Position numbers and translations under genes: made by a program
IMG/VR virus record: IMGVR_UViG_3300035168_000026
Location: 1-43,184 of that record
Source: a virus
Strand: one strand, 5' to 3'
Length of the DNA stretch: 43,184 nt
The notes under the pieces: model-generated
Seen by the model: only the letters and a program-made list of their open reading frames with translations
What the model was told of the DNA's origin: nothing
Database searches by the model: none
Part shown: piece after piece, positions 3,617-42,797 of the stretch
Layout: each line of letters starts with the position of its first letter
How positions within the stretch are numbered: the first letter of the stretch is position 1

Positions 3617-4138
3617 ATGGGTCTAAGGTTGTTCGGAGTCCTGGCCACGATGGTGGTCGGTGTGCTCTTGGTGTTCGCCATGCCAGCGTTCGCCACCGGA
3701 GGAGGTAGCTGCCAGTGTCACGGTGATCCCGGCCCCAAGGGAGATCCTGGCCCGAAGGGGCCAAAGGGAGACCCAGGTCCTCCTGGCCCTCCAGGTGTTC
3801 CTGGTCCGAAGGGAGATCCCGGTCCTAGCGGTCCTGGCGGAGGCCAAGGTCCGCCCGGCCCCTCTGGCCCCGCAGGCCCTCCTGGCCCGAAGGGTGATCC
3901 CGGCACTCCTGGTGAAGCAGGCCCTCCCGGCCCGGCAGGGAAGACCGGTAAGTCCGGCACCGTGAAGCTCAAGCCGACGATCATCTACCGCACGGAGCCA
4001 GGGCTGCTCAAGAGGATCAAGCTCCTGGAGATCAAGATACGCAAGCTGGAGAAGTGGTGCCCCATGCCGCCAGAGCCATGCCCCCCTGGGTACACACGAA
4101 ACCCAGACGGCAAGTGCTCGCCACAAGGATCAGGCTAG
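3617..4138 (+). CDS. Secreted collagen-like protein
   Basis: A 173-residue protein from ATG 3617 with AAGGGAG upstream. A signal peptide ([19 protein letters not shown]) is followed by a CQC motif, about 75 residues of Gly-X-Y repeats of the GPKGDPGP / GPPGPPG type (rich in Pro and Lys/Asp, so able to form a stable triple helix), a short amphipathic helix ([18 protein letters not shown]) and a C-terminal cysteine-containing tail. Unlike the two collagen-like fibres at 15649 and 17492, whose repeats are Gly-X-Thr, this one is exported and sits in the early block beside a transglycosylase. It is the last gene before a strong terminator. It may coat the infected cell or the virion; the role is unknown. 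Confidence 0.75.
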
Positions 4139-4644: not shown

Positions 4645-5088
4645 TTACGGGCGGCGGATCTTCGAGCGCAGACCGCGAAGCTCAGCGGCCGACTCGCGCA
4701 GGTCATCGAGGTCGAGACCGACGTAGGCGGTCCAGTAGATCGCGTCGGCGACCTCGTGCCACTTGATGTAGCCGCGATACATGGCCAGCGCGAGGGCGTC
4801 GGCGTCGGAGCCGACCTCGCTGTCCTCGTCAGCTGGGGTAACCGACGGCCACACGACCCACTTGAGGGCGTCGGAGCCGAGGTAGGCAGTGATCGCGTCG
4901 GCCACGGTCGTGGTGGACTGCGGGTCGAGGGCGTCGGTCATCATGATCGAGCCTTCCATCCGCTTGGTGGCCTCGTCCACGAGGGACTCGGCGGACCAGC
5001 CGGACTCCTGGAGCGCGGCGATGATGCTGCCGAGGTGATCGGCCGTGTGGGCGTTGACCTCGGGACCGTCGATGTAAAGCTGGGGCAT
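4645..5088 (-). CDS. Hypothetical acidic protein (reverse-strand island)
   Basis: A 147-residue acidic protein starting at ATG 5088 with TAAGGAGGAACC just upstream. It follows the 77-residue gene at 5331-5098 with a 9-base gap, so the two form one reverse transcript driven by the promoter at 5371-5400. It has no signal peptide and no recognised domain; the middle contains SEVGSDADALALAMYRGYIKW and a helical C terminus (LRESAAELRGLRSK). It is inserted opposite to the structural genes and is probably a moron (extra gene). Confidence 0.62.
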   Translation of the reverse strand: MPQLYIDGPEVNAHTADHLGSIIAALQESGWSAESLVDEATKRMEGSIMMTDALDPQSTTTVADAITAYLGSDALKWVVWPSVTPADEDSEVGSDADALALAMYRGYIKWHEVADAIYWTAYVGLDLDDLRESAAELRGLRSKIRRP

Positions 5089-5097
5089 GGTTCCTCC

Positions 5098-5331
5098 TTA
5101 GCTTTCGTTGCTGGAGCGGTTGACGATTTCGAGGGCCTGGATCATGGCGGCGAGGTGGTCGTAGCACTCAGTCTTGGTGCCGATCTTGAGCGTCTTGACG
5201 ACGCCGAACGCGTCGCAGAGTTCAAGCGCGGTGTAGCCGTTCCGGCCTTCGACGTCGATGCGCAGGCCATTCAGCATGCGGCTGACGACTTCGGCGCGAT
5301 GATCGAGGTTGATCTTGGTCGTGCGGGGCAT
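5098..5331 (-). CDS. Hypothetical 77-residue protein with possible dual start
   Basis: A small protein from ATG 5331 with AGGAGG before it. The reading frame continues upstream without a stop to a second ATG at 5364, exactly six bases after the -10 hexamer of its promoter, so an 88-residue leaderless form beginning MSLNPSNQEAP is also predicted. The core (INLDHRAEVVSRMLNGL, then YTALELCDAFGVVKTL) is mixed alpha/beta and unassigned. It is the first gene of a two-gene reverse island between the HNH gene and terminase. Confidence 0.62.
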   Translation of the reverse strand: MPRTTKINLDHRAEVVSRMLNGLRIDVEGRNGYTALELCDAFGVVKTLKIGTKTECYDHLAAMIQALEIVNRSSNES

Positions 5332-5363
5332 GGGAGCCTCCTGGTTGCTGGGGTTCAAGCTCA

Positions 5364-5400
5364 TACCCGTATTAAAGCACACGGAACCCATTCCATGGGG
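5364..5400 (-). promoter_or_regulatory. Dispersed promoter element, copy A
   Basis: Read on the minus strand: a weak -35 (CCCCAT, 5400-5395), an 18-bp spacer, TTTAAT (5376-5371), ACGGGT, then ATG (5364-5362). It shares CATGGAATGGG and CGTGTGCTTTAATACGG with copy C at 14007-14042. Downstream, an ACCCCAGCA leader precedes the Shine-Dalgarno sequence. Confidence 0.65.
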
Positions 5401-5441
5401 CCTTCGAGTAGGTTGCGTGAATGTCTTAACATGAGGCGCTC

Positions 5442-7091
5442 GTGACCGTCCTAAGCCTGGACGAGCAGCGCCAGAAGAACCGCGCCAAGGCGAAGCGTCA
5501 CTACGACAAGCAGCGCGTCGTCACCGACCAGGGCTTCCGCTGCCAGTGCACGGTCTGCGGCGACGAGTTCTTCGCCCGGAAGCGCGACGTGAAGGTCTGC
5601 GGCGAGGGCGGGTGCGCCAAGGTCGTGGCCAGGCAGCGGTACAAGCCCTTCACCGTCGAGCACTTCGAGAAGTGGGCGTCCGGAGTGATCTTGGACAACG
5701 GCAAGCCCTGGAAGCTGGAGCGGTTCCATAAGCGCTTCATCGCCGACCTGTTCTCCGGCTTCCGCGAGCTTTGGCTCCTGATCGGCGAGGGGAACACGAA
5801 GACGACGACGCTGGGCGGGATCGCGCTGTATCACTGCCAGTTCCGGCGGCTAGGACGAGTCCCGATTGCGGCTGCATCTCGCGACCAAGCGTTCGAGATG
5901 TATCTGCAGATGCAGGTCATGGTGGAGTCGTCACCAGCCCTGTGGGATCTGTTCAAGTGTCACGAGGGCCAGCGCCAGATCAAGTGCGACTCGATGTCGT
6001 CGCGAGCACAGATCTTCTCGGCCGACGACCGCACCGGCGACGGCGTCATCTTTACGCTGGCGCTGATCGATGAGCTACACCGGGCCAGAGACCTGAGGCT
6101 CTACCGCACCTGGGTCGGCAAGACCGAGAAGAGGGGAGGCCAGGTGGCAGGGATCTCGACCGCCGGTGATCCTGGCTCCGACTTCGAGCTTACGCGGGCG
6201 CGGATCCGCCAGACGGCGACCGACCGCAAGACCGACGAGCCTGGCTATCTGCGGGCGGCGTCCAAGGATGTCGTCCTGCACGAGTATGCGTGCCCGCCGG
6301 AGTCCGATGTCGAAGACATGAAGAATGTGAAGCTCGCCAATCCGTTCTCCGGCATCACGCTCACGAGCCTCAAGCGCAAGCGCAAGTCTCCGACGATGAC
6401 GATCTCGCACTGGAAGCGGTTCACCTGCAACATCGCCACCCGCGACATCAACGCGGCCATCCTGGAGCAGGAATGGTTCGACCAGGTGACGAGCATCGAG
6501 ATCCCGGTCGGCGTGCCGATCTACTGCGGCCTGGACGTGGCATGGAAGAACGACACCACGGCTCTGGCTCCGCTGTGGGTGAGAGACATGAGCTTCCGCT
6601 TGTTCGGCAAGGGCGAGATCCTTGTGCCTCCTGGTGGGGGCCAGTCGCTCGACCCGCACAAGGTGGAGGACGCACTGCTCCAGACGCACGACCGGAACCC
6701 GATCCATACGCTCGTGATGGACACGATCAAGGCGGAGCAGCTGGCTGCCTGGGCGGCAGAGAATCTGGGCTGCACGGTGATCGACCGTGGCCAGTCCAAC
6801 GCGCACGCCGCGCTCGACTACGAGCGCTGGATGGAGGGCATCCGCGAGGGCAGCATCTACCACCCTGGTGACGCCGACTGCACACGGCACGTGCTCAACG
6901 CCGTGGCCCGGCCGCTGCCCAGCGACAAGACGAGATTCGACCGGCCCATGGCCACTCGTGGCGGGCCGGAGCTTGCGCAAGCTATGCGGGTGATCGATTG
7001 GCTCACCGCTGCCGCGATGGCGAACACCCAGGCCGTCGCCGATCTGATGGAGCCGGAAGAGCCGCAGTACCGCGTGGCGGGATTCTCGTGA
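5442..7091 (+). CDS. terL: Terminase large subunit
   Basis: A 549-residue DNA-packaging motor. An N-terminal Cys-rich module (residues about 31-60, CQCTVCGDEFF, CGEGGCAK) precedes the ATPase. The Walker A is the divergent GEGNTKTT (115-122), the Walker B is ALIDELH (207-213), and the C-terminal RNase H-like nuclease begins at GLDVAWKNDTTAL, with the metal-binding Asp at 365. It translocates DNA into the prohead and cuts the concatemer. GTG 5442 is used; a four-codon frame starting at ATG 5431 ends across it (TCGTGA), which may couple initiation. No separate small terminase is obvious upstream, though the HNH protein at 4245 may assist packaging. Confidence 0.93.
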   Translation: MTVLSLDEQRQKNRAKAKRHYDKQRVVTDQGFRCQCTVCGDEFFARKRDVKVCGEGGCAKVVARQRYKPFTVEHFEKWASGVILDNGKPWKLERFHKRFIADLFSGFRELWLLIGEGNTKTTTLGGIALYHCQFRRLGRVPIAAASRDQAFEMYLQMQVMVESSPALWDLFKCHEGQRQIKCDSMSSRAQIFSADDRTGDGVIFTLALIDELHRARDLRLYRTWVGKTEKRGGQVAGISTAGDPGSDFELTRARIRQTATDRKTDEPGYLRAASKDVVLHEYACPPESDVEDMKNVKLANPFSGITLTSLKRKRKSPTMTISHWKRFTCNIATRDINAAILEQEWFDQVTSIEIPVGVPIYCGLDVAWKNDTTALAPLWVRDMSFRLFGKGEILVPPGGGQSLDPHKVEDALLQTHDRNPIHTLVMDTIKAEQLAAWAAENLGCTVIDRGQSNAHAALDYERWMEGIREGSIYHPGDADCTRHVLNAVARPLPSDKTRFDRPMATRGGPELAQAMRVIDWLTAAAMANTQAVADLMEPEEPQYRVAGFS

Positions 7092-11541: not shown

Positions 11542-11552
11542 GCGGGCTGGCT

Positions 11553-11906
11553 CTAGACCTCCTGGCCCGTGTCGGTGTCAACGACGACGACGACGGTGCC
11601 CGGCCCGTGATTGCCGACCCTGGACTCCTTCACCTTCACGGCCGTAGCGTAGGAATCGCTCCGTTTGATGATCTCGGCGAAGGCGACGTACGTGACGCGC
11701 TCCGGGCTGATCGAGCGGGCGACATCCTGGCCGACCCACCACTCGGCGGTCGAACGGCCCATGTGACGCCGGATGACGCGGCCGTCTTCGAAGCCATTCC
11801 AGACTTCGGCAGTGATGGCCTCTTCGCGGGCAGCAACGACGGCGTAGCGCCGGTTGCTCGTGGTGCGGATCTTGTGTCCACGGACGGTGAAGGTGCGGGA
11901 CGACAT
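11553..11906 (-). CDS. Hypothetical protein of a reverse-strand island, possible dual start
   Basis: A 117-residue protein from ATG 11906 with AGGAGG upstream. The frame remains open to ATG 11936, which lies six bases after the promoter -10, so a 127-residue leaderless form (MEFTPAQEAK added) is possible. The sequence is beta-rich with TVRGHKIRTTSNRRYAVVAA, ITAEVWNGFEDG and VTYVAFAEIIKRS; I do not recognise it. It sits alone, opposite to the glycan cassette, between the second glycosyltransferase and the first methyltransferase. Confidence 0.62.
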   Translation of the reverse strand: MSSRTFTVRGHKIRTTSNRRYAVVAAREEAITAEVWNGFEDGRVIRRHMGRSTAEWWVGQDVARSISPERVTYVAFAEIIKRSDSYATAVKVKESRVGNHGPGTVVVVVDTDTGQEV

Positions 11907-11935
11907 CTTGGCCTCCTGTGCTGGGGTGAATTCCA

Positions 11936-11970
11936 TACCCGTATTAAACATTACGGGAACCCTCGCGCAA
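11936..11970 (-). promoter_or_regulatory. Dispersed promoter element, copy B
   Basis: On the minus strand: TTGCGC (11970-11965), a 16-bp spacer, TTTAAT (11948-11943), ACGGGT, then ATG (11936-11934). The leader that follows reads TTCACCCCAGCACAGGAGG, with the Shine-Dalgarno sequence for the second start. Confidence 0.7.
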
Positions 11971-12003
11971 AGGTTCACGAGCCATTCCGGAGCGTTTCTT
12001 AAC

Positions 12004-12606
12004 ATGAGCGTCCAGGCATATCCGGCGGCATGGTACGACGAGGTCATGGTCGAGGACGGCAGCCCGGCTATGCTGCCGCTGGAGGACAGCCCGTGGCTGA
12101 CCACCTACGAAGCGCTGGCCGGGATGATCGACCCGCACGAGGAGGTCGTTGACCTGGGCTGCGGCACCGGCCGCTTCATCGAGCTTTTGCGCCGCAACGG
12201 GCACTACGCCAAGATCACCGGAGTGGACTGGTCGGCAGCTGCGCTCGAAGCAGCCTTCGAGTACGTAAGCACCGGCCCGACCGAGAGGAACAGCTGGCAG
12301 CGGCTCGACCTGCTCGACTGGCAGCCCGATCCCGACCGCGCTGGCAACACGGTCTACGTGTCCAGCGAGGTGCTGGAGCACATGCCTGACGATCTCGACC
12401 TGGTGCGCCGCCTGCCGCCTGGCCATCGGTTCCTGTTCACCGTGCCCAACTTCTGGTCAGAGTCGCACGTGCGGATCTTCGCAAACGTGGGCGACCTGTG
12501 GGCACGCTATGATGGGTTGCTCCACTTCCGGCTCTGGCGCATGACCGGCACGGAGCGCCAGGGCATCCATATCTGCGAGACGCGAAGGAGGCATGACGCC
12601 TGGTGA
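12004..12606 (+). CDS. SAM-dependent methyltransferase (class I), first
   Basis: A 200-residue methyltransferase. Motif I is VVDLGCGTGRF (residues 48-58) and motif II is KITGVDWSAAALEAA; motif IV is represented by NTVYVSSEVLEHMPD, typical of small-molecule O- or N-methyltransferases. The target is unknown; the cassette context points to methylation of a sugar or of a glycan intermediate on the virion. ATG 12004 is preceded by TTCTTAAC; the 12-mer TCTTAACATGAG at 11997-12008 also occurs at 5424-5435 before terminase. There is no clear Shine-Dalgarno sequence. Confidence 0.8.
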   Translation: MSVQAYPAAWYDEVMVEDGSPAMLPLEDSPWLTTYEALAGMIDPHEEVVDLGCGTGRFIELLRRNGHYAKITGVDWSAAALEAAFEYVSTGPTERNSWQRLDLLDWQPDPDRAGNTVYVSSEVLEHMPDDLDLVRRLPPGHRFLFTVPNFWSESHVRIFANVGDLWARYDGLLHFRLWRMTGTERQGIHICETRRRHDAW

Positions 12607-31082: not shown

Positions 31083-32213
31083 TTAGCTGACTGCGCCAGC
31101 CTTGGACTGGAGCCGACCGCCGCGCCGCTTGGCTGCCGGAGCGGGCTTCGGGTCAGGCTTGACCTCGCCGTCCACCTTCTTGGCCTCGCGCTTCTTGGCG
31201 GCTGCCCTGACCTTGGAGATTCCGGCCTTCGCCTTGCTGGCCTTCGCCTTCTCCGCCTTCGCCGCCTTGGCCTCGATGATCTCGCGCTTGCGGGTCAGGA
31301 ATCCGACCCAGTTGCGCACCTGCAGCCGCTCCAGAGCGTCCTTGACTTCGAAGGTCATGAGCGCCTTCTTGTCCTTGATGCCCAGGGCGGAGTTCACGAG
31401 GTCGCTCTTGTAGCGGGCGTCCATGCCGGGCCTGAAGTTGCCGGACTCGGACAGGTAGACCTCTGGGGTGCCCAGGTCGCGGGCGGTCTGCTTGGGGGCC
31501 TTTTTGTCGGCCATCGTCTTGATCCTTTCGATCTGCCGGGCGGACGCGTCAACGTCCTGCATCCGGCGCTCCAACTCTGCAGGATTGCGGAGTTGGTCGA
31601 GCTTCTGTGCTGCTGACTTGCGCTGCTCCAGCAGGGCCATGATCTGCCTGCTGCAGCGGTCGGATTCGGCTGTCACCGCTGGTGACACGTTCTCGAATCC
31701 GGACTTCGACTCCTTGGCCCAGGCCTTGTCGTAGTCGGCCTGGACCTGGATCAGGTCGGCGTCGATCCGCTCGACCTTGGACTGAAGCTCTGCGATCTCG
31801 GCGTCGAGCTTCACCTTGATCGGGTGGTCGTCGGCGATGGTCATGACCTCTTCGAGCGCTGCCGCGAACTCCGGCGACTCCATCTCCGTCTTCAGCTGAG
31901 CGACTGCCGTGTCGATTACTGCCCGCGACGGCCCCGTCGTGGCCTCTTCCTGGCTCTCCGTGACCACGGGAGCCTCCGGCCCGGCCTCCGGGCCTCCCTG
32001 GGCGTACTCGTCGTACGGGAGGCCGGAGACGGCCCACGCCTTCACCTGGTCGTTGTCCATGCCCGTGATGCGCCGGATCTGCGCTCGTGCGTTCTTCACG
32101 GTCTGGAGGCCGAGGGTCCAGTCGTAGGACTGATCGCTCTTGCGAGCGCCCTGCTGTGCCATGCGGGCCATAAGCTCGTCCGGCGTCATGTCCTTGATGC
32201 GCTTGGCAGCCAT
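31083..32213 (-). CDS. Large basic coiled-coil protein (nucleoid-like C terminus)
   Basis: A 376-residue protein from ATG 32213. Residues about 100-245 are coiled coil (KLDAEIAELQSKVERIDADL, CSRQIMALLEQRKSAAQKLD), then a middle domain (TARDLGTPEVYLSESGNFRP, SDLVNSALGIKDKKALMTFE), and a Lys/Ala-rich C terminus (EIIEAKAAKAEKAKASKAKA) like histone-tail or nucleoid proteins. DNA binding is likely; the family is not recognised. It has its own promoter (copy D) and a possible upstream in-frame leaderless start at ATG 32252. Part of the dispersed repeat encodes its VTESQEEATTG segment. Confidence 0.7.
   Translation of the reverse strand: MAAKRIKDMTPDELMARMAQQGARKSDQSYDWTLGLQTVKNARAQIRRITGMDNDQVKAWAVSGLPYDEYAQGGPEAGPEAPVVTESQEEATTGPSRAVIDTAVAQLKTEMESPEFAAALEEVMTIADDHPIKVKLDAEIAELQSKVERIDADLIQVQADYDKAWAKESKSGFENVSPAVTAESDRCSRQIMALLEQRKSAAQKLDQLRNPAELERRMQDVDASARQIERIKTMADKKAPKQTARDLGTPEVYLSESGNFRPGMDARYKSDLVNSALGIKDKKALMTFEVKDALERLQVRNWVGFLTRKREIIEAKAAKAEKAKASKAKAGISKVRAAAKKREAKKVDGEVKPDPKPAPAAKRRGGRLQSKAGAVS
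31935..31967 (+). repeat. Dispersed short repeat, copy 2
   Basis: CGTCGTGGCCTC, then TGGCTCTCCGTGACCAC (31951-31967). This 17-mer is identical to 7113-7129, with a 1-base length difference in the spacer. Here it lies inside the coiled-coil gene and is read in frame. Confidence 0.5.
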
Positions 32214-32251
32214 TCGGCCGCTCCTTTCGCTGGGGGCTGGGGTGAACTGCA

Positions 32252-32287
32252 TAACCGTATTCAATCAGATGGGGCGGTCGGCGTCAA
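32252..32287 (-). promoter_or_regulatory. Dispersed promoter element, copy D
   Basis: On the minus strand: TTGACG (32287-32282), a 17-bp spacer, TTGAAT (32264-32259), ACGGTT, then ATG (32252-32250). The leader continues CAGTTCACCCCAGCCC. It lies between two reverse-strand genes, so it is an internal promoter of that block. Confidence 0.65.
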
Positions 32288-32929: not shown

Positions 32930-33135
32930 GCCGAGGCCCATCGGTTCGGCAGGACGGGCGCGATGCCAAGCTGCGCCGCCAGCACGCGCTGGCATTGCAG
33001 GCACTCGCACCCGGCTTCGGCCCTAGGGTCGAGCTTGCGCCAGTTGCGGCGGTAGAGCGTCCGGCCACACAGGGTCGTGCCGTGCTCCTCGTTGACGAGG
33101 TGCCGCTTGCCGGATCTCTTGTGAACGGAGATCAT
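32926..33135 (-). CDS. Small zinc-finger-like protein
   Basis: A 69-residue basic protein (HKRSGKRHLVNEEHGTTLCG, then RRNWRKLDPRAEAGCECLQC). Three or four Cys with a C-x-C-x2-C ending and flanking His suggest a zinc knuckle. ATG 33135 overlaps the helicase stop (ATGA), so it is translated with the helicase and may assist it on DNA. Confidence 0.6.
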   Translation of the reverse strand: MISVHKRSGKRHLVNEEHGTTLCGRTLYRRNWRKLDPRAEAGCECLQCQRVLAAQLGIAPVLPNRWASA

Positions 33136-34742
33136 GCTGGGACTCCTTCCGTTGCTGGGAGCGTGGATTGAAGCACAGCCACGTTGGTGATGTCAAGCTG
33201 GACCTTGGCCCGCGTGGCGGCGACGTACAGGAGACGAAGCTCCTCGTCTGACGGGTTCTCCGGCGGGAAGTCGCCCGCCAGCTGGACGGAGTCCCACTCA
33301 CGGCCCTTGGCCTTGTGGGCGGTCGAGACGACGACATCGGCCTCGTCCTCGCGGATCGTCTTGTCGAGCGCGTCCAGGATGACCGGCACGCCGAAGTCGT
33401 CCACGAGCTTCACCATCAGCTGAAGCTCTGCGCCCAGCTGATCCTCTTGCACGTAGGCTTGGACTTCTCCCCAGGAGTCGAAGCAGGCGAGGTCGGGGTG
33501 CTCTGTCGGCAGGCCCGCCATCACGTCTGCGGCTGCTCGTGCGAACGCGACGACCTCTTTGCCTCCGCCGACCAGGCAGGCCCGCTGCTCGTTCTTCTGT
33601 GCTCGCAGGACGGTCGCGACGGCGACGGCATTGGTGCGGGTCAGGATCGCGGTGGGGGAGTCTAGGGCCTCCACGACGGAGGGGATCGAGTCGGTGCCCA
33701 CCAGGCGAAGCTCTGCGTTGAGCAGGCCCAGGATCTCGTTGGCGACCTCGGCGATTGCCGGGCCGAAGCGGAAGCTCTGCGTCAGGTAGGCCCTGGCGTC
33801 GGCGTCCACCTGCTGGAGCGCGTTGACTGCGCCGGTGAACGAGTAGATCTGCTGCTGCGAGTCGCCGACCCAGACCAGCTGTGCGTGGTCGGCCTGCGCG
33901 GCGATGATCGCCTGCATGACCGGGTTGGCGTCCTGCGCCTCGTCGAAGAGGATGTAGTCGGTGTTGATCGTCGGCTGGCTCAGCTGCCAGGCCTTGAGGT
34001 AGTGGTCGTGGCGGTAGGGCAGGATGCCGGTCTCCGACATCAGGTCGGCCCAGGCGGCTTCGAGCTTCGGCAGGAGCACGCGAGCCACGAGCTTGTTCTG
34101 CTCGTAGGAGCGCACGCCATCGGTGACGGGGTCGATGCCCTCGATATAGGGGAAGTTGCGGACGGAAGGCTCCAGGTCTGCGGTCTGGCAGAAGCGGATC
34201 ACTGCCGCCATGACGTGCCCGCCCAGGAAGCTCTTCGGCAGCTGCTTGCTCTTGCCGTCGAGGCCCTGCACCTGGATCGCTTCGACACCCAGGCGGAGCG
34301 CGATGTCCAGCGACTTCATCCGCTTGCTGCCGCGCAGTCGGTGGCTGAACTTCGTGCCCCAGGCCTTGTACGCGAGCGAGTGCGCGGTCGAGGAGGAGAC
34401 GGTGGCGGGCATCTTGGCCTGGGCCTCCGTCACGATGGACTTGTTGAAGGCGACGTACTGCCCACGCCGGTTCGGTGCCGACTTGGCCAGCAGGAGGAGC
34501 GTGCTCGTCTTGCCGGTGCCAGCGCCAGCCTCCACGGCCAGCGAGTCGCCGGAGTTGAACAGATCGAGCGCGTGAGCTTGCTCGCCCGTGGGCGCGAAGC
34601 TCGTGACCGGCTTGTCTGCCACCGGCTTGGCGCAGGCCTCATGCGTGACGCCTTCGCCCTTCGTCCACTCGACGCGCTCGCCCGCTGCCACGGGCTGGCC
34701 GCACGAGCGGCAGGTGCCTGGGAACTTCGCGGTGATTGTCAT
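33132..34742 (-). CDS. SF1 (UvrD/Rep-type) DNA helicase with N-terminal zinc finger
   Basis: A 536-residue helicase. An N-terminal zinc module (C11, C14, H34, C37) precedes the motor: Q-motif region FAPTGEQAHALD, Walker A EAGAGTGKTS (73-79 core), motif II DEAQDANP, motif III WVGDSQQQIYSFTGA, and motifs V/VI STAHKAKGREWD and LLYVAATRAKVQ. These enzymes are 3'-5' translocases used in repair, recombination and restart. Start ATG 34742 has AAGGAGG. The frame is open back to the promoter (34797-34825), but no ATG lies six bases after this -10 (TAC instead), unlike the other copies. It heads the reverse operon. Confidence 0.88.
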   Translation of the reverse strand: MTITAKFPGTCRSCGQPVAAGERVEWTKGEGVTHEACAKPVADKPVTSFAPTGEQAHALDLFNSGDSLAVEAGAGTGKTSTLLLLAKSAPNRRGQYVAFNKSIVTEAQAKMPATVSSSTAHSLAYKAWGTKFSHRLRGSKRMKSLDIALRLGVEAIQVQGLDGKSKQLPKSFLGGHVMAAVIRFCQTADLEPSVRNFPYIEGIDPVTDGVRSYEQNKLVARVLLPKLEAAWADLMSETGILPYRHDHYLKAWQLSQPTINTDYILFDEAQDANPVMQAIIAAQADHAQLVWVGDSQQQIYSFTGAVNALQQVDADARAYLTQSFRFGPAIAEVANEILGLLNAELRLVGTDSIPSVVEALDSPTAILTRTNAVAVATVLRAQKNEQRACLVGGGKEVVAFARAAADVMAGLPTEHPDLACFDSWGEVQAYVQEDQLGAELQLMVKLVDDFGVPVILDALDKTIREDEADVVVSTAHKAKGREWDSVQLAGDFPPENPSDEELRLLYVAATRAKVQLDITNVAVLQSTLPATEGVPA

Positions 34743-34796
34743 GGAAGACCTCCTTGCCGGGATCGTGTGTACCGGCGGTCGCTGGGTGTAAACCGC

Positions 34797-34825
34797 ATTA
34801 AACCAAACGGAGCGGACGAGCACAA
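34797..34825 (-). promoter_or_regulatory. Dispersed promoter element, copy E (helicase operon)
   Basis: On the minus strand: TTGTGC (34825-34820), a 17-bp spacer, TTTAAT (34802-34797), GCGGTT. It lies back-to-back with a forward promoter whose -35 is at 34840-34845. The leader reads ACACCCAGC, similar to the other copies. Confidence 0.65.
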
Positions 34826-34839
34826 TGGTATGGCCGGGC

Positions 34840-34868
34840 TTTACGGCCTCCGCTCCGTGTGCTAAGCT
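34840..34868 (+). promoter_or_regulatory. Forward promoter of the early operon
   Basis: TTTACG (34840-34845), a 17-bp spacer and TAAGCT (34863-34868), with CCGTGTGC before the -10 as in copies A and C. It drives the forward early block after a leader of about 130 bases (to ATG 35003), the longest non-coding leader in the genome, which ends in CCAGCAACCCAGCAGAAGG. No open regulatory motif can be named in the leader. Confidence 0.55.
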
Positions 34869-37928: not shown

Positions 37929-38266
37929 CCACGGCTGCACAAGCTCGCGAGCTGCGCCGGTCAAAAGATCCGGCGTACGCTGCGCGACGCAAGGCCGCTA
38001 ATCGTCGCCTGCACGAACGAAGGCAGGTGGCACTCAGAGCGGCCAAGGATCTACCATGCGTGGACTGCGGACAGAGCTACCCGTTCTACGTCATGGATCT
38101 TGACCACGTGCCGGAGCGAGGGCCCAAGCTCTTCAACCTTGGTAGCGTTGGTCGTATTGGGTGTGGCATGGCGAAGCTCCTGGCCGAGATCGCAAAGTGC
38201 GATCCGGTTTGCGCCAACTGCCACCGCATCAGATCATACGAAAGGAAGCAACATGTCAACGTTTGA
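37922..38266 (+). CDS. HNH endonuclease, probable non-ATG start (homing-type)
   Basis: An HNH protein with CVDCGQSYPFYVMDLDHV, LLAEIAKCDPVCANCHRIRS. The only usual start is GTG 38027, which leaves the fold short, yet the 35 codons before it encode a typical basic HNH N-terminal helix (ELRRSKDPAYAARRKAANRR). A start at ATC 37922, overlapping the previous stop with GAGGAAG upstream, or a -1 frameshift from the previous gene, would include it; the N terminus is therefore uncertain. A homing function is suggested by the small size, position and lower G+C. Confidence 0.62.
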   Translation: MVTTAAQARELRRSKDPAYAARRKAANRRLHERRQVALRAAKDLPCVDCGQSYPFYVMDLDHVPERGPKLFNLGSVGRIGCGMAKLLAEIAKCDPVCANCHRIRSYERKQHVNV

Positions 38267-41063: not shown

Positions 41064-41296
41064 AAGTTGTCGAAGGCAGCAACGGATGGATCTACGTCGA
41101 TGACGACGGCGACGAATGGTACGCACAACGCACCGAAGAGGCCACCGACCGCGACACGTGGGATCTGGAGGCAGACAGCATCCGCGAACGGATCTGGCTC
41201 CAGCTTGGATCCGGGCGGCTGATCTTGGGCGAGACGCCGGTGGCCGAGGAGGGCCAGGTCGTCATGATGTTCCAGCAGATCGAGGCGTCGACATGA
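41060..41296 (+). CDS. Hypothetical 78-residue acidic protein
   Basis: It starts at ATG 41060 (ATGA overlap) and overlaps purZ by ATGA. It is acidic and aromatic (GWIYVDDDGDEWYAQRTEEA, DTWDLEADSIRERIWLQLGS, VVMMFQQIEAST). The position immediately before purZ, coupled on both sides, suggests a function linked to Z-nucleotide metabolism or its control; that is only inference. Confidence 0.58.
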   Translation: MKVVEGSNGWIYVDDDGDEWYAQRTEEATDRDTWDLEADSIRERIWLQLGSGRLILGETPVAEEGQVVMMFQQIEAST

Positions 41297-42360
41297 GGGG
41301 TCGAGCCACAGCCCTGGTCGGAGCGCAATATGGATCTGAAGGGAAGGGCCTCGTGGCCGCTGCCCTGGCCAACCAGTTCGAGGTCCACGTCCGCACCGGC
41401 GGGCCGAACGCGGGCCACACGTTCTATCACGATCACGAGAAGTTCGTGGCACGCTCGATCCCGTGCGGATGGATCAACCCGGACGCGCTGCTCCTGGTCG
41501 GGCCGGGCGCTGTCATCGACCTCGAAGTGTTCAAGCGCGAGCTTCAGGAGATCAACGACCGGGCAGATGTCGCTGAGCGTCTGACGGTCGATTACAGGGC
41601 GACCGTCATCAGCCACAGCCAGCACCAGGGCGAGGGCGGCGTCCACGGCGTGGCTCATCGCGAGATCGGCTCGACCGGCGAGGGAGTCGGCCTGGCCAGG
41701 ATGTCCAGGATTAATCGCGACACGCTGATCTCCACCGACATCTCGCCATTCGCACACATCAGAGCACACGACCGGCGCGAGGAGTTCGAGAGCATGGGCG
41801 TCCAAGTCGAGGACGTGGCGTCGATCCTCCACAGCGAGATCGAGGCTGGGGCGGAGGTGCTGCTCGAAGGGACGCAGGGATGCGGCCTGAGCATGACCCT
41901 CGGACCCTGGCCTTACTGCACGAGCGCCGACACCAACGCCGCGCAGCTGGCGTCAGATGCCGGGATCTCGCCCAGCGACGTGAAGGAGACTGTGCTGGTG
42001 GCCCGCACGTACCCGATCCGGGTCGCCGGTAAGTCTGGGCCACTGTGGAGTGAGACGACCTGGGAGGAGGTCGGCCAGAAGCCGGAGACCACGACCGTGA
42101 CCAAGAAGGTGCGCCGCGTCGGGCTGTGGAACGACGACCAGGTGCGGCAGGCCAGCCGGGTCAATCATCCGGCGCTGCTGGTCATCACCTTCCTGGACTA
42201 CATCTTCCCTGAGACAGCTGGGATTCGCAACTGGAGGGCGCTGCCGCAGCCAGCACTCGACTGGCTGATCGAGAAGGAGCGTCTGCTGAATCTTCGCGTG
42301 ATCGGCGTCGGGACGGGTCCAGACTCGTATTGCCCCATCGGGCAGCTGGGTGCGCCATGA
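41293..42360 (+). CDS. purZ: PurZ: N6-succino-2-amino-2'-deoxyadenylate synthase
   Basis: A 355-residue member of the adenylosuccinate synthetase family, shorter than PurA (about 430). ALVGAQYGSEGKG carries Ser 15 where PurA has its catalytic Asp (GDEGKG); this Asp-to-Ser change is the hallmark of phage PurZ, which accepts dGMP instead of IMP. PurA landmarks retained are NAGHT (His 42), EGTQGCGLSMTLGPWPY, TYPIRVAG, and VGTGPDS. The enzyme joins dGMP and aspartate using ATP; host PurB, guanylate kinase and NDK then complete dZTP. It precedes dut (ATGA overlap) and the MazG-like gene, as expected for a Z-nucleotide cluster. Host PurA contamination is ruled out by length and motif. Confidence 0.88.
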   Translation: MRGRATALVGAQYGSEGKGLVAAALANQFEVHVRTGGPNAGHTFYHDHEKFVARSIPCGWINPDALLLVGPGAVIDLEVFKRELQEINDRADVAERLTVDYRATVISHSQHQGEGGVHGVAHREIGSTGEGVGLARMSRINRDTLISTDISPFAHIRAHDRREEFESMGVQVEDVASILHSEIEAGAEVLLEGTQGCGLSMTLGPWPYCTSADTNAAQLASDAGISPSDVKETVLVARTYPIRVAGKSGPLWSETTWEEVGQKPETTTVTKKVRRVGLWNDDQVRQASRVNHPALLVITFLDYIFPETAGIRNWRALPQPALDWLIEKERLLNLRVIGVGTGPDSYCPIGQLGAP

Positions 42361-42797
42361 TTGTCGAGTTCACGAAGCTCGCACCGGAGGCGGTCGTCCC
42401 CATGACAGCCTATCCGGGCGACGCAGGGTGGGATCTCCACGTGCTGGAACCGACCTGGGTGGCTGTCAACTCTGGCGTTGATGTCCGCACAGGTATCGCC
42501 GTGGCGATCCCACCTGGATATTACGGCCGGATCGTCGGCCGGTCGAGCGCTCTTCGCAAGAAGGGCCTGCTCGTCGTGGAGGGCATCATCGACGCGGGCT
42601 TCAGGGGCGAGCTATTCAGTTACGCCTACTGCCCGCCGGTCACCAGGAACGTGACCACCAACGGAGTGCAGCTGAAGGCGGGCGACTCAATCGCCCAGCT
42701 GATCCTGTGCCCGATCCCCAGCATCGAGTGGACGGAGGTGGACGAGTTGCCACAGTCAGAGCGAGGCACCAACGGATTCGGGAGCAGCGGGCGATGA
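42357..42797 (+). CDS. dut: dUTPase
   Basis: A 146-residue trimeric-type dUTP diphosphatase with all five motifs: AGWDLHV (1), GIAVAIPPGYYGRIVGRSS (2), GIIDAGFRGEL (3), GDSIAQLIL (4) and ERGTNGFGSSG (5). It converts dUTP to dUMP and pyrophosphate, keeping uracil out of DNA and supplying thymidylate synthesis. It overlaps purZ and the MazG-like gene by ATGA, so all three are made together. Confidence 0.92.
   Translation: MIVEFTKLAPEAVVPMTAYPGDAGWDLHVLEPTWVAVNSGVDVRTGIAVAIPPGYYGRIVGRSSALRKKGLLVVEGIIDAGFRGELFSYAYCPPVTRNVTTNGVQLKAGDSIAQLILCPIPSIEWTEVDELPQSERGTNGFGSSGR

Follow-up and report, generated by a model that had tools for sequence, protein, structure and literature searches.

Genome Organisation and Minus-Strand Transcription Units

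The leftward genes of the virus described here raise the question of whether one transcript can offer the ribosome two starts, one at its very 5′ end and another behind a Shine-Dalgarno (SD) sequence. The IMG/VR record IMGVR_UViG_3300035168_000026 was analysed over its whole length of 43,184 nucleotides, referred to below as the window. Its minus strand has five transcription units in all, each headed by one copy (A to E) of the same promoter/leader module (Table 1), and in four of the copies an ATG occupies the predicted first base of the transcript.

The first 127 bases of the window recur at its end, which indicates a circular virus genome of 43,057 bp; its GC content is 64%. The genes for the terminase, portal, capsid and tape-measure proteins, a siphovirus-like set, are located on the plus strand. 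The capsid relatives that reside within cellular genomes are mainly Actinomycetota prophages, and the phage, a soil virus, probably has actinobacteria as its host group.

Searches of PHROGs and Pfam gave no match for genes A–D, and Rfam and tRNA scans found nothing. In the IMG/VR search, no relative was found for the product of gene D, and for that of gene B only an identical fragment (L004). The islands carrying genes B (11545-12003) and C (13735-14037) are missing in a 75% identical relative (L007), where the genes flanking the two sites overlap each other. This indicates antisense single-gene cassettes among the late genes, and like morons they have a promoter of their own, the opposite orientation and no counterpart in the close relative.

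Other features of the genome were also noted. A PurZ-like gene (2-aminoadenylosuccinate synthetase, phrog_1211; 41116-42360) adjoins a dUTPase-like gene (42357-42797), and the phage may have 2-aminoadenine in its DNA. Collagen-like repeats of the Gly-X-Y type, in 9-nt units, are located at 15727-16553 and 3722-3934. On the plus strand at 5431-5445, ATGAGGCGCTCGTGA forms a four-codon ORF, and its stop codon shares bases with the GTG that starts the terminase gene; TCTTAACATGAG, part of this element, is common to the start of a methyltransferase gene at 12004.

Table 1. Positions in the window of the promoter/leader copies and of the genes that follow them
Feature	Position	Strand	Details
Copy A -10 hexamer	5371..5376	-	TTTAAT, extended (TGC ahead); then ACGGGT
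Copy A ATG at predicted +1	5362..5364	-	
Copy A leader	5332..5364	-	33 nt, in frame, MSLNPSNQEAP; SD AGGAGG 5337-5342; SD-led ATG from 5331
Gene A	5098..5331	-	77 aa, SD-led
Second gene of unit A, after gene A	4645-5088		147 aa
Copy B promoter	11943..11971	-	TTTGCG-N17-TTTAAT; then ACGGGT
Copy B leader	11907..11936	-	from +1 ATG, 30 nt, in frame, MEFTPAQEAK; SD AGGAGG 11912-11917; SD-led ATG from 11906
Gene B	11553..11906	-	117 aa, orphan, in antisense cassette
Copy C promoter	14014..14042	-	TTGCAT-N17-TTTAAT, extended (TGC); then ACGGAT
Copy C leader	13975..14007	-	from +1 ATG, 33 nt, in frame, MKFTPAAKEDT; SD AGGAGG 13980-13985; SD-led ATG from 13974
Gene C	13735..13974	-	79 aa, orphan, in antisense cassette
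Copy D promoter	32259..32287	-	TTGACG-N17-TTGAAT, extended (TGA); then ACGGTT
Copy D leader	32214..32252	-	from +1 ATG, 39 nt, in frame, MQFTPAPSERSGR; SD AAAGGAG 32221-32227; SD-led ATG from 32213
Gene D	31083..32213	-	376 aa, orphan
Copy E promoter	34797..34825	-	TTGTGC-N17-TTTAAT, extended (TGG)
Copy E leader	34743..34790	-	48 nt, +1 TAC not ATG, retains TTTACACCCAGC; SD AGGAGG 34749-34754; SD-led ATG from 34742
Gene E	33132..34742	-	536-aa UvrD-like DNA helicase, heads minus-strand operon reaching 32293

Predicted Promoters and Transcription Start

A sequence-only reading of the window had put an ATG (first bases 5364, 11936, 14007 and 32252) exactly six bases past a -10 hexamer in copies A–D, and recomputation returned the same positions. 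Its proposal that this hexamer is a -10 element and that the RNA begins on the ATG is supported by the promoter geometry. A TTG lies exactly 17 nt ahead of TTTAAT or TTGAAT in C, D and E (chance about 1e-5), which fixes the -10 and thereby places +1 on the ATG, and in A, C, D and E the hexamer comes directly after TGN. Against the proposal, copy A has no recognisable -35, and the hexamer, lacking A at position 2, is not a canonical TAnnnT; for this reason the copies were missed by a canonical sigma-70 promoter scan. On the plus strand at 34858-34863, TGTGCTAAGCT is a normal extended -10 that faces away from copy E and probably belongs to a divergent early promoter.

A SigA-type promoter module, TTG-N17-TT(T/G)AAT, appears to have been copied ahead of each of the five minus-strand units. 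RNA polymerase would start 6–7 nt past the hexamer, and with a gap of six the first base of the transcript would be the A of the ATG in copies A–D.

Leaderless Starts in Related Phages

The core of copies B–D, with up to three mismatches, gave three matches against none in 100 shuffles. A near-identity search of phage records found no match, none of 160 related loci contained the motif, and among IMG/VR and GTDB genomes the sole true match was L004, the other loose-pattern matches being chance-like, one per contig. Since L004 is 100% identical over 14 kb, it carries no information on conservation, and no diverged orthologue of copies A–D was found in the searched records. As L004 was the sole other searched record with the module, the leaderless principle was tested in relatives instead.

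The relatives comprised 3.27 Mb of GC-rich, mostly actinobacterial loci with the capsid or the helicase in common, in which ORFs of at least 60 codons beginning with ATG were considered. The ATG lay 6 nt after TAnnnT in 68 cases and 7 nt after it in 94, compared with about 20 at each other gap (162 for the two gaps combined, about 40 expected). This pile-up indicates that leaderless starts are a habit of this phage group, and together with the prophage relatives of the capsid it supports the earlier appeal to the leaderless habit of actinobacteria. Outside the copies, the rest of the window has no such peak. Copies A–D match the peak with their spacing of exactly 6 nt; they depart from leaderless genes in having an SD-led start in the same ORF.

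One relative, L091 (IMGVR_UViG_3300027870_000001, 86,791 bp), shows the same architecture and also has the copy-E helicase (55% identity). It carries about 25 repeated promoters of the form ..CTGTC..GCTACAGT-N7-ATG on one strand (pieces L258-L262), most of which drive genes that lack an SD and begin ATGGAcGCAcCC; judged from its sequence, this is a phage-wide leaderless regulon. Like the copies studied here, the L091 promoters are repeated and have conserved codons after an ATG at +1, and three of them (10525, 62959 and 73168) have dual in-frame starts, 30, 39 and 39 nt apart. They differ in sequence, mostly head leaderless-only genes and include one dual copy that is out of frame (13596, with an 11-codon ORF); another relative, L089, also has an out-of-frame dual copy. 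Three further L091 copies lack a start at +1 (38129, 61339, where ATC is found, and 66910). Each has a downstream ATG fitting a leadered start, flagged as SD-led at 38129 and 61339; at 66910 it follows a weak AGAGG only and was not so flagged.

The TTG-N17 geometry, the 6–7-nt peak in the relatives and the parallels in L091 make leaderless initiation at +1 plausible.

Phase of the Two Starts

In copies A–D, an SD sequence (AGGAGG or AAAGGAG) lies 5–7 nt ahead of a second ATG. The distances from the +1 ATG to this ATG, given earlier as in-frame and free of stop codons, were confirmed for all four copies, as was the in-frame position of copy E, where TAC stands in place of ATG. Two in-frame starts with no stop between them are thus a property of A–D and not of E. 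The chance of finding all four in phase is 0.012 and that of no stop in all four is 0.34. The sequence-only reading had called such phase unlikely by chance; the figure is suggestive but not by a wide margin, and taken alone it is weak evidence, the more so as the copies are mutually related and the test is not fully independent. Codon scoring of leaders A–D ranked the ATG frame best of three, whether the SD part was included or left out, but B–D share sequence, so this support amounts to nearly one observation. In the relatives, an ATG at the leaderless gap ahead of an SD-led start was in frame in 9 of 14 cases, one of them with a stop between the starts; at control gaps the figure was 14 of 41 (Fisher p=0.049). 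Some of these dual cases may in truth be leaderless genes in which a chance SD lies ahead of an internal Met, and such a Met is in frame by necessity.

The reading favoured here, with moderate confidence, is that each of these genes yields a long and a short protein. A 70S ribosome could start on the 5′-terminal AUG and a 30S subunit at the SD site of the same mRNA, and one message would give the protein together with a version bearing 10–13 extra N-terminal residues. Our guess is that the extension is not a functional peptide and that it would mainly secure the translation of unrelated cassette genes by either route.

The module might instead be a relic that descends from a promoter serving a genuinely leaderless gene and was recruited ahead of SD-led genes. 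The SD start would then make nearly all of the protein, the +1 ATG would be used trivially or not at all, and the phase would reflect chance and common descent. Such an origin agrees with copy E, which lacks the ATG, and with its L091 counterpart at 61339, each of which has an ATG further on that fits SD use; also in agreement are the dominance of leaderless-only promoters in L091 and a chance of 0.012 for the phase of the four copies. However, the spacers of A–D differ in length (30, 33 and 39 nt), and compensating indels separate A from C, yet all are in phase; the best studied actinobacteria translate any +1 AUG, needed or not (PMC4633059). On this evidence, we regard the relic origin as rather unlikely.

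Conservation of the Leader

The comparison of the copies points to conservation of the DNA. TTCACCCCAGC is the same in copies B, C and D, third codon positions included. Copy A has ACCCCAGC shifted by one base, and a compensating indel brings the phase back. The similar peptide noticed earlier is indeed present in B, C and D, as M-x-F-T-P-A; in copy A, since ACCCCAGC falls in another frame, the peptide is M-S-L-N-P-S. Copy E keeps ACCCAGC and has lost about eight bases including the ATG; as it nevertheless retains the promoter, the phase and the SD, the ATG is dispensable. All this is most simply read as a copied module conserved at the level of nucleotides, from which the M-x-F-T-P-A peptide would follow. 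Selection on the extension peptide is therefore unsupported: it is the DNA that is conserved, and the downstream element persists in copy E although the ATG is gone. A conserved peptide as the primary cause was rejected, since these bases lie in another frame in copy A. RNA folding of the leaders revealed no unusual or stable fold (z from -1.35 to 1.06), which leaves an RNA structure hiding the SD unsupported.

Conservation of this kind might also be expected if the stretch from +1 to +17, ATGnAnTTCACCCCAGC, were a regulatory DNA or RNA site of the minus-strand regulon, for example a repressor operator or an anti-termination or initial-transcript signal, with the ATG incidental. The identity of B, C and D at third codon positions, the shifted frame in A and the ACCCAGC of E without an ATG would all fit, and actinophages are known to have repeated intergenic elements that are operator-like or associated with starts, as in Cluster O (17-bp repeats; PMC4351075) and Cluster K (ESAS/SAS; PMC11373665). 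Nevertheless, the stretch has no dyad symmetry and, as noted, no stable RNA fold, and TTCACCCCAGC is not a genome-wide repeated site, with 20 matches in the window against 15.4 expected, which is not above chance. The ESAS/SAS of Cluster K resemble the present module in that a conserved promoter with leader and SD is repeated ahead of several genes in one phage. They combine an inverted repeat at the promoter with a conserved 13-bp sequence at the SD, and no +1 start codon is described in the text consulted; the stretch conserved here is asymmetric and stops before the SD. A regulatory site is fairly unlikely, though, like the relic, a serious alternative.

A start elsewhere, with a leadered transcript from a base past the ATG made from TAATAC as the -10 or by a phage-specific polymerase, would account for the missing A of TTTAAT, which TAATAC overlaps, but it is highly improbable: the TTG lies 17 nt from TTTAAT and 19 nt from TAATAC, and the sole variable hexamer base (T, or G in D) is at position 3, free in TAnnnT, both of which favour TTTAAT, while the plus-strand element at about 34858 aligns with TGTGCTTTAAT and the proteins scanned, a part of the gene set, included neither an RNA polymerase nor a sigma factor.

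Comparison with Known Systems

In mycobacteria, an ATG or GTG at +1 suffices for leaderless initiation (PMC4633059). The actinobacterial leaderless mRNAs of that study (Shell et al. 2015) resemble the proposed ones in having a -10 about 6 nt ahead of the ATG at the would-be 5′ end, with no SD needed, and some of them likewise begin in frame ahead of the annotated start. Unlike them, the copies described here have a strong SD-led in-frame second start 30–39 nt further on, repeated in a phage promoter family.

The nearest described parallel is found in Cluster O mycobacteriophages, for which leaderless SigA promoters were predicted, one of which would serve a leftward gene lying in the structural operon (PMC4351075). 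The Corndog promoters PL1, PR2 and PL2 are SigA-like and have +1 on the start codon, as here; in the text consulted, a second SD-led start is not described, and the promoters do not form a repeated sequence module.

N-terminally different products of one gene, as proposed here, are known for Shigella VirF (PMC5101355), one form of which comes from a leaderless mRNA, and for Streptomyces sigma-R/sigma-R′ (PMC4921905). Both rely on two separate promoters, whereas the present proposal has a single promoter and a single transcript. No description of a module that is repeated and sets an in-frame +1 ATG ahead of an SD start was found in the papers retrieved from an open-access library, and its novelty is provisional.

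Taken as a whole, the interpretation of the sequence-only reading is supported in part: it gains from the promoter geometry, the leaderless peak of the relatives and the in-frame dual starts of L091; it is weakened by the relatives, which keep the phase in only 9 of 14 cases, and by conservation of the leader as DNA.

A broader and rather doubtful possibility, put forward tentatively, is that the module is a mobile actinophage promoter cassette which brings its own +1 start, held in phase with a strong SD start, and gives every cargo gene two independent routes of translation from one mRNA. Expression would then be secured when SD initiation is impaired in infection or stress, and every cargo protein would have two N-termini.

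Should both starts be used as proposed, gene starts of this phage group would be mis-annotated, and one transcript would feed two initiation pathways, providing a natural, repeated test system for the competition of 70S leaderless and 30S SD initiation on one mRNA. Leaderless starts, long debated for the hosts, would be a main mode in some soil actinophages.
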